A DNA stretch of 64,000 nt from Spirochaeta cellobiosiphila DSM 17781. Lineage in GTDB: Bacteria; Spirochaetota; Spirochaetia; DSM-17781. Each line of letters starts with the position of its first letter. The stretch's first letter is position 1. A program made the translations under genes and the position numbers. The notes under the pieces are model-generated. The model was given only the letters and a program-made list of their open reading frames with translations. It did not search any database and had not been told where the DNA came from. Of this stretch, positions 10,979 through 28,656 are shown in pieces. The stretch covers positions 574,714 through 638,713 of the forward strand of contig NZ_KE384554.1 of the NCBI RefSeq assembly GCF_000426705.1, written 5' to 3'.

Positions 10979-11030
10979 GTTTTTAACCAGTAGGGAAAGC
11001 TTTTTTTTGCTCTCACTCACATCGAGGGCT

Positions 11031-11058
11031 ATTATACTAATATTTGTTTTCATGTCAA
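11031..11058 (-). promoter_or_regulatory. Candidate distal spoVG promoter
   Basis: Minus strand TTGACA (11058-11053), 16-base gap, TATAAT (11036-11031): both hexamers match the housekeeping consensus exactly. It would give a leader of about 115 bases before spoVG. It lies back to back with the promoter of the divergent CheX-like gene. Confidence 0.6.
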
Positions 11059-11091
11059 ATGGTATTCTCATTTTTTTTGCTAAACTTTTAT

Positions 11092-11121
11092 TTGACATTA
11101 ATATTTTACAAAAACTATACT
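11092..11121 (+). promoter_or_regulatory. Promoter of CheX-like gene, predicted leaderless start
   Basis: TTGACA (11092-11097), 18-base gap, TATACT (11116-11121). Transcription starting about 7 bases after the -10 box would begin at the ATG at 11128. No ribosome binding site is visible between them. Confidence 0.6.
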
Positions 11122-11127
11122 TCACTT

Positions 11128-11598
11128 ATGAACAAACTAATCAACAAATTGCTTAAACAGTCACTTAATAATTTATTCTCAGAAGCGGGAATTGACCACA
11201 AACTGCGGAGTTTTCAACTTTTTACAAAACCTGTATACAACCTTGTTTGTACCATAGGAGTGACTGGAGATCATCACGGCTTTTTATATCTATACCTATC
11301 AGTAGAGGATGCGAAAAAATTAGTTATCATGTTTTCTGAAGCTTTTAATGTGCCTGTGGAAAGCGGAGATGGCTTTACTGACTTTCATAAAGGTACTTTG
11401 GGCGAAATCATTAATCAGCTTTCGGGACAATGGTGTACCTTATTAAGCAAACACAACATTGATTGCAACATTTCTCCTCCAACCATCATCAAAGGTAGCG
11501 ATGTAAGTATTAACACAAGTGGGAATAAAGCCTTTAAACCTATTTACATCAAAGGAGATTTTGGTACAGCACGAATTCAGGTTAATCTTAAAAACTAA
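11128..11598 (+). CDS. CheX-like chemotaxis phosphatase-family protein
   Basis: The 156-residue protein has one CheX/CheC-type domain. The signature E-x-x-N-x-x-x-G is intact at Glu93, Asn96 and Gly100 (GEIINQLSG); in CheX these residues remove phosphate from CheY-P. Spirochaetes use CheX as their main CheY phosphatase, but this copy stands alone, away from the che operon. It may therefore act on another receiver protein or be a spirochaetal paralogue. The reading frame is open back to 11044, but that part is an improbable Phe-rich extension lying upstream of a good promoter. I chose the ATG at 11128. Confidence 0.75.
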   Translation: MNKLINKLLKQSLNNLFSEAGIDHKLRSFQLFTKPVYNLVCTIGVTGDHHGFLYLYLSVEDAKKLVIMFSEAFNVPVESGDGFTDFHKGTLGEIINQLSGQWCTLLSKHNIDCNISPPTIIKGSDVSINTSGNKAFKPIYIKGDFGTARIQVNLKN

Positions 11599-22893: not shown

Positions 22894-24600
22894 TTAGGAT
22901 TGCGCCGATTCTGTATCATATAGTGCGGCTAAATGCTTCAAGCCCACTTCAAGCTTACGCAAATAACCATCAATCACCTGACGAAAATTCCCTTTACCAC
23001 CAAAATTGATATGACTAATATTGGATAAGGTGTCATACTTCCCACCAAGCTCACCATAGACAATGCCTTTGAGGACTTTAACCATCACATTTTGAGCATC
23101 CAGAGCTTTTTTGATGATATTTTCTGCCTGAAGATCAACCTCCATAACAAGAGAACTAACCTCTTTTTTCATATCCTCTGCTTTCAAGTTTTGGTTAACT
23201 AAACCCATTAACTGCTGATGAAAGGGATATTCTGGCTCAAGGGATGTGGAAAAATCAGTAATAAGGCTTCCTAATAGCAAAAGATTATTATAACTATCTG
23301 TAAACTCGGCCCTATTATCTTTTTTATAGAAATCACCATCGACTAATATCTTCTTCAATAAGGGATTGAGCTCTTCCACCATGATAGTACTGTACCACTC
23401 CTTAAGATAGGCCATGGTCATACAGTAACGACCGCTTATCCCCTGATTAGCAAAATCTTTGTTATAATTTTCCAGAACGGAGATCTTGTCCTTGCCCAAA
23501 AAATTAGCAGCTTCTTTTATGATTTTTTGACGATTCTCTGCTTTGATAAAGGCCTGGATCTGAAGACGGCTCCTTGATTCCCAGAACTTACGATAAGTCT
23601 GAAACCAATCTTCTCCTCCAGACACCTCTTCAGGATTATAATTAACATTATTTGAGAGGAACTGTATTATATCTCTTAGAGGGACTTGTTTATTAAAAGT
23701 TCGCAAGACACCTAAAGCCTTTTCTGCGTAATTGATCTTTAGCTTTAGATATTCCCCTATTTTGGAATCATCCGCTTGTAGATTCTCACGACTATTGAAT
23801 AAGAATAATACCTCCAAAAGCTCTAGCGTCGGAGGTATAGTCAAGCTCTGTATAATATCAGCTATTTGCTCCAGCCCCTCTCTTAATTCACTCACCGGAC
23901 AGGGACTAACATAATCAGGATGCCCCAGTAAAAAGGGAGCTGTCAAAAGCTTCCAATTAAAAGAGCTGAGTTTATGTAATAGGTATAGTACACGGGCATG
24001 AACATATAGGTCCGTCTTTTGGTTATTGGTAATACTCATCATAGCTGATTCCAGTGCATTCTCACAAAGGGCCTTTATATCCCTTGAATCTTTATCAGGG
24101 TGGTTTTTCCGAACCGTCCAAGGGTTGGTATCATTTAAGAGCTTGACAGAAATATCCGGAATAAAATGATTCCCAAGGAAGGCATAAAACTCGCCTTTAT
24201 TAACCTCAAAAGCATATCTAAGTGGATCTTTAAAGACCCCTAAACTCTCCTCGAGTTGAGTGATCTGTGTAAACATTGGGGTATCAAATTGATTTGTTCT
24301 GAAATCTATTAATGAAGAATTGACTTTGGTGATCTTATCAATTTGTTTTGCTACAAGATGATCCTCCATCAAATCAACAATGGCTTTGCCAGTGAACAAA
24401 GATTTAATAAACAAAAAAAACCTATGTATTACATTCAAGCTCTGAAAGCTCTTTTCTAAATCAACGGCAGTGAAACCATCCGTATCCAGAGACAAAGGTT
24501 CGTCACTTAAATCTACTTCGGTTGATAAAGCATCAAGAAGATTCTGTCGTTCTTCAGGAGTGATAGTCTGTACTAATTCTTCAAAGATTGTATTATCCAT
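22894..24600 (-). CDS. Spirochaetal protein of unknown function (DUF5312-like)
   Basis: A 568-residue, largely alpha-helical soluble protein with no signal peptide, starting MDNTIFEELVQTITPEERQN. From recall this resembles a family found mainly in spirochaetes (DUF5312), but I could not test that. A short hydrophobic patch (RFFLFIKSLF, about 60-70) is the only membrane-like segment. It has no obvious catalytic motif. It is a single gene, transcribed away from the ilv operon, with a promoter close to its start. Confidence 0.6.
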   Translation of the reverse strand: MDNTIFEELVQTITPEERQNLLDALSTEVDLSDEPLSLDTDGFTAVDLEKSFQSLNVIHRFFLFIKSLFTGKAIVDLMEDHLVAKQIDKITKVNSSLIDFRTNQFDTPMFTQITQLEESLGVFKDPLRYAFEVNKGEFYAFLGNHFIPDISVKLLNDTNPWTVRKNHPDKDSRDIKALCENALESAMMSITNNQKTDLYVHARVLYLLHKLSSFNWKLLTAPFLLGHPDYVSPCPVSELREGLEQIADIIQSLTIPPTLELLEVLFLFNSRENLQADDSKIGEYLKLKINYAEKALGVLRTFNKQVPLRDIIQFLSNNVNYNPEEVSGGEDWFQTYRKFWESRSRLQIQAFIKAENRQKIIKEAANFLGKDKISVLENYNKDFANQGISGRYCMTMAYLKEWYSTIMVEELNPLLKKILVDGDFYKKDNRAEFTDSYNNLLLLGSLITDFSTSLEPEYPFHQQLMGLVNQNLKAEDMKKEVSSLVMEVDLQAENIIKKALDAQNVMVKVLKGIVYGELGGKYDTLSNISHINFGGKGNFRQVIDGYLRKLEVGLKHLAALYDTESAQS

Positions 24601-24644: not shown

Positions 24645-24673
24645 TTGACAAATTCAGTATATTCGTTTAAATA
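24645..24673 (+). promoter_or_regulatory. Candidate ilv operon promoter
   Basis: TTGACA (24645-24650), 17-base gap, TAAATA (24668-24673); TTAAAT one base earlier is an alternative -10. The predicted start is next to the leader peptide ATG at 24681, with no ribosome site visible. Confidence 0.5.
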
Positions 24674-24680
24674 AACTGTA

Positions 24681-24770
24681 ATGACTAAAGCAAAACTTAA
24701 CGTTCTTCCTATTATTATTCTGAATATCCTCATTTCTGTCATTATTATAGAACAGGGGTTCAGAAAGTAG
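24681..24770 (+). CDS. ilvL: ilv leader peptide (attenuation control)
   Basis: A 29-codon reading frame upstream of ilvB. It encodes 8 Ile (three in a row at codons 11-13, three more at 21-23), 4 Leu and 2 Val, that is 14 of 29 branched-chain residues, and ends at TAG 24768-24770. Its position, between a promoter and a strong terminator that precedes the branched-chain amino acid genes, is that of a classic attenuation leader peptide. Ribosome stalling when charged Ile-, Leu- or Val-tRNA is scarce would switch the RNA fold downstream. No Shine-Dalgarno is seen; translation may start at the 5' end of a leaderless message. Confidence 0.75.
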   Translation: MTKAKLNVLPIIILNILISVIIIEQGFRK

Positions 24771-24829
24771 GAAGCATCGATTACCATAAAATCAGCCGTT
24801 CTTCCTACAAGGAAGACGGCTTTTTTTTT
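24765..24829 (+). terminator. ilv attenuator: terminator with competing antiterminator
   Basis: The terminator stem pairs 24794-24806 with 24810-24821 (12 bp with one bulged T at 24800, loop ACA) and is followed by a run of 9 T. GTAGGAAG at 24767-24774, overlapping the leader stop codon, is perfectly complementary to CTTCCTAC at 24801-24808 in the left arm and would form an antiterminator. An 11-base copy of the left arm (24691-24701 = 24797-24807) lies early in the leader peptide and can pair with the same segment. This gives the 1:2, 2:3, 3:4 alternation of enteric attenuators. Confidence 0.8.
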
Positions 24830-24853
24830 ACCAATATACATAAGGAGTAGATC

Positions 24854-26587
24854 ATGGAGAGAACCGGAAGTCAACTAATTGTTGAGGCCCTTAAAAAGGA
24901 AGGGGTCGATCTCATATTTGGATATCCCGGAGGTGCGGTGATTCCCATCTTTGATGTCCTCTATGATCATCCTGAAGTCGAGTTGGTTTTAAATCGGCAT
25001 GAACAGGGATCTGTTCATGCTGCCGATGGTTATGCCAGAGCAACCGGCAAGGTTGGAGTTTGTCTTGCCACCTCTGGTCCGGGAGCAACAAATACCATTA
25101 CAGGTTTGGCAACAGCTAATTTTGACTCCATTCCCATTGTCTGCATAACAGGGCAAGTTCCCCGTAATATGATAGGAAATGATGCCTTTCAGGAAGCGGA
25201 CACTCAAGGCTTAACAAGGCCTGTATCCAAACATAATTATCTTGTTACCCGCCGTGCCGACCTTGGAAGAGTATTAAAAGAGGCCTTTTACATTGCCCAG
25301 ACAGGACGTCCTGGTCCTGTCATTGTAGATATTCCCAAAGACGTCCTAAACACCATTCTAGATGATGAATATCCTGAGGAAGTTAGCCTCAGAGGTTATA
25401 ATCCTGTTTACAAAGGACATTCCCGGCAGATACATAAAGCAGCAGAGGCATTGAATAATGCCCAAAAACCCCTCTTCTACATTGGAGGAGGCATGCACTT
25501 ATCAGGTGCACAGGATATATTCCGACAAATCGTTGACAAAACTGGTATTCCTGTTACCAGTTCCCTTATGGGATTAGGCATCCTGGAACAAGAGGATCCT
25601 AACTTTTTGGGAATGATCGGTATGCATGGAACAGTGGCAGCTAATCAAGCCATAACCGATTGTGACCTACTCTTTAGTATAGGAGTACGCTTCGATGATA
25701 GAGCGACAGGGGATCTTAACCGTTTTGCTACACATGCTGATATTATTCATATAGACATTGATCCCACAACCATTAGCAGGAATGTAGCTGTAAAAATTCC
25801 TATCGTGGGAGATGCAAGAACTGTACTGGAAGAGGTAGCCCCCCTTCTGGAAGAATCTAAGGCTCATGACTGGATTGATGAAATCAAAACAAGGAAAAAG
25901 CTTAACCCTCTTGATGAATCCGTTCCCGGTCCCGGTTTATCACCTGGCCATATTATACGTCAGATTGGTCACGTATTCCCTCAAGGGATCATCTGTACAG
26001 AAGTAGGACAGAATCAAATGTGGACAGCCCTCTTCTATCCTTTTAACAGAACGAGATCCTGGCTAACTTCTGGAGGCCTTGGCACTATGGGATATGGCTT
26101 TCCTGCGGCCTTAGGAGCTCAAGCCGGTTTACCCGATAAAAGGGTTATTGATATTGCAGGAGACGGTTCGATCCAGATGAACATCCAAGAGTTAGCAACC
26201 TGTGTCGATCAAAAACTACCCGTTATTATTGCTATCCTGAATAATGGCTATCTTGGTATGGTTAGACAATGGCAAGAATTATTTCATAAAAAAAGGTATT
26301 CACATACCTGTTTAACAGCGGCGGGACAAGATAATGGCCCATGGAATACAGATGCTCAAACACCGCCCCCTTATCATCCTGACTTTGTTATGTTAGCCAA
26401 AGCCTATGGGGCAGAGGGAATACGGGTAACAAAGGAAGAAGAGATAATCCCCGCCTTGGAAAAGGCCAAATCCATTACAGATCGACCTATTGTTATCGAC
26501 TTCTTGATTGATAAAGAAGCAAATGTCTGGCCCATGGTACCTCCTGGAGCCGGTCTAGACCAATACATTACAGGACAGGAGGCCTAA
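24854..26587 (+). CDS. ilvB: Acetolactate synthase large (catalytic) subunit
   Basis: A thiamine-diphosphate enzyme that makes acetolactate and acetohydroxybutyrate for valine/leucine and isoleucine. The 577 residues include the N-terminal domain with the catalytic Glu region (FGYPGGAVIPIFDVLY), the FAD-contact region and the C-terminal ThDP/Mg motif GDGSIQMNIQEL followed by NNGYLGMVRQWQ. The start ATG at 24854 has AAGGAG 6 bases upstream. It is the first enzyme gene of the ilvB-ilvN-cimA operon behind the attenuator. Confidence 0.97.
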   Translation: MERTGSQLIVEALKKEGVDLIFGYPGGAVIPIFDVLYDHPEVELVLNRHEQGSVHAADGYARATGKVGVCLATSGPGATNTITGLATANFDSIPIVCITGQVPRNMIGNDAFQEADTQGLTRPVSKHNYLVTRRADLGRVLKEAFYIAQTGRPGPVIVDIPKDVLNTILDDEYPEEVSLRGYNPVYKGHSRQIHKAAEALNNAQKPLFYIGGGMHLSGAQDIFRQIVDKTGIPVTSSLMGLGILEQEDPNFLGMIGMHGTVAANQAITDCDLLFSIGVRFDDRATGDLNRFATHADIIHIDIDPTTISRNVAVKIPIVGDARTVLEEVAPLLEESKAHDWIDEIKTRKKLNPLDESVPGPGLSPGHIIRQIGHVFPQGIICTEVGQNQMWTALFYPFNRTRSWLTSGGLGTMGYGFPAALGAQAGLPDKRVIDIAGDGSIQMNIQELATCVDQKLPVIIAILNNGYLGMVRQWQELFHKKRYSHTCLTAAGQDNGPWNTDAQTPPPYHPDFVMLAKAYGAEGIRVTKEEEIIPALEKAKSITDRPIVIDFLIDKEANVWPMVPPGAGLDQYITGQEA

Positions 26588-27088
26588 ATGCGTCACATTA
26601 TCAGCCTATTGGTAGAAAATAAACCGGGTGTTGTATCCAGAGTATCAGGACTGTTTTCAGGAAGAGGTTATTCCCTGGAAAGCATCACTTACGGAGAGAC
26701 CATGGATCCTTCCCTCTGCCGAGTGACTTTGACAAGCACAGGGGATGAGACAGCCATAGAGCAGATCCTCAAGCAGCTTCACAGATTAATAGATACGATA
26801 AAAGTACAGAATCTGACAGACCATAAAGCGATTACCAGAGAATTAGCTATTGTAAAGGTGCGGGCAGATAAAGGATACAGAGCAGAGATTATAAAGATGG
26901 CTGAAACCTATAAGGCAACAGTGCTTGATGTGTCTACTGATTCCTTTGTTATGGAAATCACAGGTTCAACCAGAAAGATTGAAGATTTTATTGAAGTTAT
27001 GTCTGAATATACCATTCTGGACATTGCCCGAAGTGGATTAGTAGCCCTTGAAAAAGGCAGTAAAACAACAAAAGGAAAAAAATCATGA
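26588..27088 (+). CDS. ilvN: Acetolactate synthase small (regulatory) subunit
   Basis: A 166-residue regulatory partner of IlvB with an N-terminal ACT domain (HIISLLVENKPGVVSRVSGLFSGRGYSL split by function) that binds valine for feedback inhibition, and the conserved C-terminal domain (ELAIVKVRAD...). It starts immediately after the ilvB stop and overlaps cimA by 4 bases. Confidence 0.95.
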   Translation: MRHIISLLVENKPGVVSRVSGLFSGRGYSLESITYGETMDPSLCRVTLTSTGDETAIEQILKQLHRLIDTIKVQNLTDHKAITRELAIVKVRADKGYRAEIIKMAETYKATVLDVSTDSFVMEITGSTRKIEDFIEVMSEYTILDIARSGLVALEKGSKTTKGKKS

Positions 27089-28656
27089 CCCAAATTGACC
27101 TTTACGACACAACCCTCCGTGATGGAATGCAGGGGACAGGAATATCCTATACACTCAAAGACAAGATAGAAATCGCCCTCCAGTTAGATAATATAGGAAT
27201 TGATTATATAGAAGGAGGTTTTCCTTTAGCTAACGAAAAGGAACAAGCCTTCTTCGATGCTATGAAGAAACAAAATCTTCGTAATGCCAAAATGGTAGCC
27301 TTCGGATCAACGAGAAGACCAGGTCAGAAAGCATCAGAAGACATTCACATAAAAGCCCTTTTGGAAGCAGAAACACCCACAGTCATCGTGGTCGGCAAAA
27401 CTTGGCTGGCCCATGTTGATAAGGTCATTCAAACAAGTCCGGAAGAAAACCTCGAAATGGTCTTTGATTCGATCAACACTCTCCAAAAAGAGGGACGGGA
27501 AGTCTTTTTAGATTTGGAACATTTCTTTGATGGATATATGGATAACAAAGAATATGCACTTAAGGTCCTCCAGACAGCCACCCAAGCTGGTGCCGCTAAC
27601 TTAGTGCTATGTGATACTAACGGCGGGACGTTACCCTTTCAAGTAGAATCCATTATGGAGGAACTATCTACTTATGAACTAGCCCCTCTGGGAGGGCATT
27701 TTCATAATGATACAGGATGTGCTGTTGCCAATAGTTTATCCGCTATTCGTAAAGGAGCGGTTCAACTTCAGGGAACTATCAATGGATGGGGGGAACGTTG
27801 CGGAAATGCCAATCTGTGTTCTATCATTCCTAATATTACGTTAAAGCTCCCTGAATACTACACGTCTATGGATCAGAAGTTAAGCCAATTAACGAATCTG
27901 AGCCGTTTTGTTTCGGAAAAGGCCAATATATTCCCTGATAAAAGACAACCCTATGTGGGAGTAGCCGCCTTTAGTCACAAAGCCGGCCAACACGTGGACG
28001 TTATCAACAAAGCAGCTCGACTCATGGAACACATTGATAGTTCTAAAGTGGGAAATGAAAGAAAAATATTACTTAGTGAATTGGCAGGTAAATCCACCAT
28101 TGTGGATAAGCTCAGTCATTATGGTGACTATACGAAAGACAGTCCTGAAGTCAACAAACTCATCTCCCTTCTCAAAAAGAAAGAAAAAGAAGGCTATGAG
28201 TATGAAGCAGCAGAAGCAAGCTTTGAAATGCTCATTCTCAAGACTCTAGGCCAATACAACTCCCTCTTTGATCTCAATAACTATCATTTGGAAAGCTTTA
28301 AAACCGGTGAAGGAAGTTCCAAGACAGTGGGGAGAATATTTCTTCACTCCCACGGAAAACAACACATGGGTGCTGCCACAGGTATAGGACCTGTTGGAAC
28401 ATTGGATAAATGTTTGAGGGATGCCCTTGGGGAGTTCTATCCTTTCATAAAGGACATCTCCCTTATTGATTATAAGGTAAGAGTTTTAAATCCGGAAAAA
28501 GATGCAGCCCAGGGCAAGGTACGGGTCTTTGTAACGTCCAGTGATAAACATTCCAGTTGGGACACAGTAGGAGTACATCAAAACATCGTTGAAGCCAGTT
28601 GGGAAGCCCTCGTTGATAGTTTTGAGTACTACTACAACAAGAGGGCTAAGGTTTAA
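27085..28656 (+). CDS. cimA: Citramalate synthase
   Basis: Condenses pyruvate with acetyl-CoA to (R)-citramalate, the threonine-independent entry into isoleucine synthesis known from Leptospira and others. The 523 residues contain the HMGL-like barrel with DTTLRDGMQG near the N-terminus and the metal/His motif HFHNDTGCAVANS, then a LeuA-type regulatory domain (from about 390, MGAATGIGPVGT...). Length and N-terminus match the long CimA class better than LeuA. Co-transcription with ilvB-ilvN under an Ile-rich leader peptide supports a role in isoleucine synthesis. Confidence 0.9.
   Translation: MTQIDLYDTTLRDGMQGTGISYTLKDKIEIALQLDNIGIDYIEGGFPLANEKEQAFFDAMKKQNLRNAKMVAFGSTRRPGQKASEDIHIKALLEAETPTVIVVGKTWLAHVDKVIQTSPEENLEMVFDSINTLQKEGREVFLDLEHFFDGYMDNKEYALKVLQTATQAGAANLVLCDTNGGTLPFQVESIMEELSTYELAPLGGHFHNDTGCAVANSLSAIRKGAVQLQGTINGWGERCGNANLCSIIPNITLKLPEYYTSMDQKLSQLTNLSRFVSEKANIFPDKRQPYVGVAAFSHKAGQHVDVINKAARLMEHIDSSKVGNERKILLSELAGKSTIVDKLSHYGDYTKDSPEVNKLISLLKKKEKEGYEYEAAEASFEMLILKTLGQYNSLFDLNNYHLESFKTGEGSSKTVGRIFLHSHGKQHMGAATGIGPVGTLDKCLRDALGEFYPFIKDISLIDYKVRVLNPEKDAAQGKVRVFVTSSDKHSSWDTVGVHQNIVEASWEALVDSFEYYYNKRAKV

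Follow-up and report, generated by a model that had tools for sequence, protein, structure and literature searches.

A very probable leaderless leader-peptide attenuator in front of ilvB-ilvN-cimA in Spirochaeta cellobiosiphila, with similar leaders in the class Spirochaetia

The ilvB-ilvN-cimA locus and its leader

The window analysed here is a stretch of 64,000 nucleotides from Spirochaeta cellobiosiphila DSM 17781. It contains the genes ilvB, ilvN, and cimA on the plus strand, which were all identified above the cut-offs of their NCBIfam models (Table 1). The upstream neighbour (22894-24600) lies on the strand opposite to ilvB, and the NCBIfam models gave no match for it. A short reading frame preceded by a promoter and followed by an intrinsic terminator is located directly in front of ilvB.

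Table 1. Coordinates of the leader and the operon in the window, and leaders of the same type in this genome
Feature	Position	Strand	Basis or remark
-35 box TTGACA	24645-24650	+	Sequence; 30 nt between box and start codon (first base to first base 36 nt)
Putative -10 box TAAATA	24668-24673	+	17-nt spacer; weak match, placed by spacing
Predicted start point	about 24680-24681	+	Promoter spacing
Leader peptide ORF MTKAKLNVLPIIILNILISVIIIEQGFRK	24681-24770	+	29 codons; predicted leaderless (AUG at about +1)
Segment A, copy of terminator left arm	24701-24711	+	Predicted protector; partner B
Putative regulatory Ile codons 11-13 (ATT ATT ATT)	24711-24719	+	Ile (or Leu/Val) run at the same place in relatives
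Second Ile triplet, codons 21-23	24741-24749	+	
Segment B, predicted antiterminator	about 24766-24780	+	Core TAGGAAG at 24768-24774; partner A or C; overlaps leader stop codon
Segment C, terminator left arm	24795-24807	+	Partner B or D
Intrinsic terminator	24795-24829	+	Hairpin GCCGTTCTTCCTACAAGGAAGACGGC at 24795-24820; T9 at 24821-24829
Shine-Dalgarno AAGGAG of ilvB	24842-24847	+	Sequence; the leader ORF has none
ilvB, acetolactate synthase large subunit	24854-26587	+	TIGR00118 (NCBIfam), 761.7 bits
ilvN, acetolactate synthase small subunit	26588-27088	+	TIGR00119 (NCBIfam), 181.4 bits
cimA, citramalate synthase, isoleucine-specific entry step	27085-28656	+	TIGR00977 (NCBIfam), 619.5 bits
ilvB leader	this genome		Ile run; residue-blind pattern
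ileS leader MNITAHGNIIISIIIPLNPWRVHPIV	this genome		Ile run; residue-blind pattern
pheS leader MNSIMGSRIFFTGLFFFFSFTGITGFGVSHR	this genome		Phe run; N20 from promoter to first ATG, N32 to internal ATG
PRK06855-type aminotransferase leader MNINSNLQTVPLIEAVAAAAAITQASGN (L230/L302)	G000:C27:166080-166259	-	Ala run AVAAAAAI
Aldolase-like gene leader MNANRSYFTSYFFFFYFAWYAPGPVCGRSSK (L227/L299)	G000:C25:70218-70401	-	Phe/Tyr run; attenuator anatomy

Most parts described in the initial annotation were found in the sequence as stated. These include the promoter, the 29-codon leader, the terminator with nine T, and the antiterminator GTAGGAAG at 24767-24774. In the leader, 14 of the 29 residues are Ile, Leu, or Val, and Ile triplets occupy codons 11-13 and 21-23. 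The -10 box is weak, and a simple promoter scan of the locus did not include it among the listed promoters. An 11-base copy of the terminator left arm had also been described, at 24691-24701; the copy (CGTTCTTCCTA) exists, but its true place is 24701-24711, a slip of 10 nt, with the terminator counterpart at 24797-24807. The last base of the copy is also the first of Ile codon 11, and the corrected position therefore fits the attenuator model better than the earlier one.

With D as the right terminator arm, the segments allow the pairings A:B, B:C, and C:D. Both B:C and C:D use C, so the antiterminator and the terminator exclude each other. The terminator sits between the leader ORF and the first gene, and the leader ORF contains codon runs for isoleucine, the amino acid of the operon. 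As A extends just as far as the first Ile codon, a ribosome stalled at the regulatory codons would be able to break the A:B protector. Folding of 24670-24845 gave -42.7 kcal/mol, compared with -25.6 ± 3.9 kcal/mol for shuffled sequences (z -4.4; 0/200 shuffles as good).

Conservation of the pairings and of the leader type

The regions upstream of ilvB were gathered from relatives, and 330 nt upstream of ilvB were inspected. Sixteen ilvB leaders, including the Val-rich leader L004, have in common the promoter, the position of the ATG, an Ile/Val/Leu-rich ORF, segment B at the stop codon, and the terminator. The ATG follows TTGACA by 26-33 nt, and the T run begins 44-64 nt past the ORF stop. In these 16 leaders, the B:C duplex energy was better with the own C than with the C of other genomes (permutation p 0.0001), and A:B was likewise better with the own than with the swapped partner (0/20000 permutations). 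In L005 and L007, the pairing of the stop-codon segment B is poor. No leader of this type was found in the 330 nt before ilvB in L033, L045, L040, L041, and L044; in L033 and L045, ilvB is preceded by a coding sequence resembling ilvD. A possible leader was seen upstream of ilvB in L016. The initial annotation had proposed to look in relatives for conservation of the Ile-rich frame and for compensatory changes in the three segments that pair. Both were found, and this comparative evidence supports its reading of the leader as a ribosome-mediated attenuator. Since the arrangement recurs in relatives, it is not due to chance.

A covariance model was built solely from the stretch that follows the Ile run and precedes the T run, with the promoter and the ATG excluded. 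Of the 395 genomes of the class, 132 gave a match at E ≤ 0.1, and 110 of the strongest matches were retrieved for inspection. TTGACA with at most one mismatch was found 29-35 nt ahead of an ORF of suitable length in 88 of them (75 exact), and these 88 leaders fall into 27 family-level groups. The other 22 contain no leaderless ORF, and some matches are chance. An exact TTGACA 28-33 nt ahead of an ATG was present in 68 of the 110 matches, while most other 6-nt offset windows gave 1-2 and the two next windows 7-8; permuted (decoy) hexamers at the same offset gave 0-1 of 110. The promoter and the start codon lie outside the covariance model, so their recurrence is independent support.

The pairings were also compared between own and swapped partners in 58 non-redundant leaders. 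Own partners were preferred for B:C (z -9.3), A:B (z -7.2), and C:D (z -17), each with 0/5000 permutations; the negative control A:C, a pairing that plays no part in the mechanism, showed no own-partner advantage (z +0.6). The three pairings A:B, B:C, and C:D thus co-evolve. The genes downstream of the matches include ilvB, cimA, leuA, ilvD, and pheA, and the downstream cimA is 60-69% identical to the cimA of the window.

The composition of the leaders broadly follows the downstream gene. The pheA leader is MIFGISFFTFAFFSFFAFYFFGKRCVVRKA, leuA2 leaders contain Leu runs, and the ilvB leaders of family f29 contain Val runs. In the one f29 case inspected (L004), neither cimA nor leuA was found within 1 kb past ilvN; the Ile-run leader of the window, unlike L004, has cimA in the same operon. 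When the residue-blind pattern TTGACA-N28-33-ATG-N111-140-T7 was run on this genome, five loci were obtained, and 5/5 are residue-run leaders (Table 1). All five show A:B, B:C, and C:D pairings, and the order is the same in each. A:B is less clear in the aminotransferase leader than in the others; this leader is a possible alanine-responsive attenuator. The aldolase-like gene is closest to a model of the 4-hydroxy-2-oxovalerate aldolase family, below its cut-off, and its Phe/Tyr-rich leader suggests that the gene has a role connected with aromatic amino acids. Looser patterns in this genome (TTGAC without A, six T, or a shorter ORF) added only chance-looking sites. A class-wide T-run pattern gave many chance sites and served solely as a source of candidates, the His leaders among them. 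In three other genomes, hisG-hisD is preceded by a leader with HHHH (L303 in G029, L304 in G002, and L283 in G003; e.g. MNIYTEKRIHHHHLLFS) that begins 31 nt after TTGACA. This genome carries five or more leaders of the attenuator type, which occurs widely in the class Spirochaetia.

Proposed mechanism and alternative explanations

Very probably, the element controls transcription in response to the supply of isoleucine (branched-chain amino acids) by ribosome-mediated attenuation, using a leader peptide that is leaderless. From its parts we infer the start point, ribosome stalling, and read-through as follows. RNA polymerase would begin at or beside the A of the leader AUG, as the promoter geometry suggests, and a ribosome would load at the 5' end without a Shine-Dalgarno sequence. 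When Ile-tRNA is ample, the ribosome at the stop codon would mask B, the C:D terminator would form, and transcription would end at the T run. If Ile-tRNA is in short supply, the ribosome would stall at codons 11-13 and mask A, B:C would form, and ilvB-ilvN-cimA would be transcribed. With no translation, A:B would form, and then the terminator. The second Ile triplet does not readily fit this three-segment logic, as a ribosome stalled there would leave A free.

The leaderless start follows from spacing. Allowing for a 17-nt spacer and the -10 hexamer, N30 brings the A of the start codon to about +1/+2, and the natural reading of this promoter geometry is that the AUG would be set at the 5' end of the transcript. 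The apparent lack of a ribosome site in the leader, which had been pointed out at the outset, is conserved in relatives. An SD-like 4-mer occurs at 3 of 88 leader starts, compared with 64 of 69 starts of the following gene, and leaderless initiation is offered as the explanation. The 5' UTR is shorter than 10 nt in about 440 mRNAs of Leptospira interrogans (PMC5243855), which makes leaderless translation plausible in the phylum. The pattern TTGACA-N29-32-ATG outnumbers its reversed form in this genome (174 sites versus 108), but taken alone it is also frequent by chance, and single cases therefore need the other parts too.

A start point farther upstream, with a conventional 5' UTR and SD-independent initiation, would make the leader an ordinary leadered attenuator. 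The -10 box is weak and the start site is a prediction from the sequence, and the ilvB leader L243 of another class has a spacer and AAAGGA ahead of its ATG. However, the distance from TTGACA to ATG is 29-33 nt in 86 of the 88 leaders although the rest of these leaders varies, a constancy to be expected only of a promoter that places the start codon at +1. Together with the rarity of SD-like 4-mers, this makes a leadered form improbable. Control of ilvB translation by coupling or reinitiation, in place of transcription termination, would have a parallel in mycobacteria, where leaderless leader peptides at cysteine genes act via translational coupling. Here, the leader stop is separated from the ilvB start by more than 80 nt that include a strong terminator and its T9, and ilvB carries its own Shine-Dalgarno sequence; a translational switch is thus very unlikely.

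A riboswitch or T-box might instead control the terminator by binding a metabolite or tRNA, with the ORF being incidental. Some ilvB-associated motifs were initially termed weak riboswitch candidates (PMC8632094). However, Rfam cmscan of the leader region up to E=1 gave no match to any family, T-box included, although Rfam may not hold the Leptospira ilvB, ilvB-OMG, and ilvB-II motifs. At the gathering score, two tRNAs were the only matches in the whole window. Moreover, the conserved element is a frame with residue runs matched to the gene (Ile, Val, Leu, Phe, His, or Ala) and no fixed RNA core, and A and B vary freely yet co-vary. There is accordingly very little room for direct ligand or tRNA sensing. 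The simplest account would be a plain terminator next to a chance hydrophobic ORF, the likeness of B and C resulting from a terminator sequence CCGTTCTTCC shared in the class. The terminator arms are indeed similar between genomes, partly because the covariance model searches for them. But own B:C and A:B partners beat swapped ones while A:C does not, and the promoter and the ATG recur despite their absence from the model. In addition, the upstream neighbour is on the other strand, so the terminator at 24795-24829 serves no upstream gene. This account is disfavoured after the permutation tests and is hardly credible.

Relation to known attenuators

The best-known cases of ribosome-mediated attenuation come from Proteobacteria and Actinobacteria. 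The E. coli trp, his, and ilv attenuators use a four-segment logic (1:2, 2:3, and 3:4) ruled by stalling at cognate codons. The same four-segment logic is predicted here; the E. coli leader peptides have a Shine-Dalgarno sequence and a 5' UTR, whereas the AUG is the predicted 5' end in the spirochaete leader.

The leaderless form has been recorded in Actinobacteria. The Corynebacterium glutamicum ilvBNC operon has a leaderless leader peptide, IlvL, with the start site one nucleotide from the start codon (PMC11857589). Like the present locus, it combines a leaderless Ile/Val/Leu-rich leader with anti-antiterminator, antiterminator, and terminator hairpins before ilvB. The likeness is by architecture: the C. 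glutamicum leader belongs to another phylum, has 15 residues, is regulated by Val codons, and has functional support. The ilvB-II motif of Corynebacterium and the ilvB-OMG motif (PMC10272879) also have a uORF before ilvB, and a terminator/antiterminator was shown for ilvB-II; they are defined consensus motifs of other lineages. In Streptomyces lividans, several operons have attenuator peptides that are leaderless (PMC8079986). These peptides are mostly leaderless and serve several amino acids (Leu, Trp, Ala, Ile, Met, and Thr), with synthetase genes included, as in the spirochaete set. S. lividans differs in being an actinobacterium, in that several of its cases are without a clear terminator, and in that its Ala leader precedes alaS, versus an aminotransferase gene here.

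The initial annotation had regarded leader-peptide attenuation in spirochaetes as undescribed, which was slightly overstated. In 2023, the Leptospira 'ilvB motif' (WRC-14-1) was read as a likely attenuator with a Val-rich leader uORF (PMC10272879; motif also in PMC8632094). It shares with the present leader the phylum, the position upstream of ilvB, and a proposed branched-chain-rich leader ORF (with a Val triplet). Compared by description, the Leptospira motif differs in having seven representatives, all in Leptospira, and is not described as leaderless. This tentative report was the only one on attenuation in spirochaetes found in the literature covered, with subscription papers mostly outside its scope. 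The mechanism is therefore classical ribosome-mediated attenuation, and its leaderless form is already on record in Actinobacteria; what seems new is the lineage and the class-wide use, as spirochaete switches before many amino-acid genes seem not to have been described before.

Leaderless leader-peptide attenuation is likely a standard mode of amino-acid control in the class Spirochaetia, in which the promoter itself would put the start codon at the 5' end. It would cover ilvB, cimA, leuA, ilvD, ileS, pheA, pheS, and hisG-hisD, plus possibly the alanine-sensing leader of the aminotransferase and the aromatic-residue leader of the aldolase-like gene. The class-wide set and the three co-evolving pairings provide a testable amino-acid-sensing mechanism for spirochaetes. 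With this set, the spirochaetes would become a second phylum with leaderless attenuators, which agrees with the mapping of many leaderless mRNAs in Leptospira (PMC5243855). For genes of uncertain function, the residues of the leader also offer predictions of the substrate, and any genome of the class can be searched with the simple rule TTGACA-N30-ATG-short ORF-terminator.

In the other classes of the phylum, the covariance model yielded one convincing ilvB leader, L243 (G419:C129; MFIINFLNTLLVDLLVVVVLSDHHKAG), which has a Val run, an SD-like AAAGGA, and a normal spacer. This leader raises the possibility that the leaderless form is confined to Spirochaetia. The matches L247, L253, and L255 from other classes were inspected and look like chance. 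A contig labelled Lentisphaerae (L047) has TTGACA, a short Val-containing ORF, and a terminator ahead of ilvB, and may be a transferred or convergent case. Within the window, two divergent exact TTGACA-N30-ATG sites are located 33 nt apart, at 11020-11058 (minus) and 11092-11130 (plus). The plus site could begin a leaderless gene, and its frame lies inside the ORF 11044-11598.
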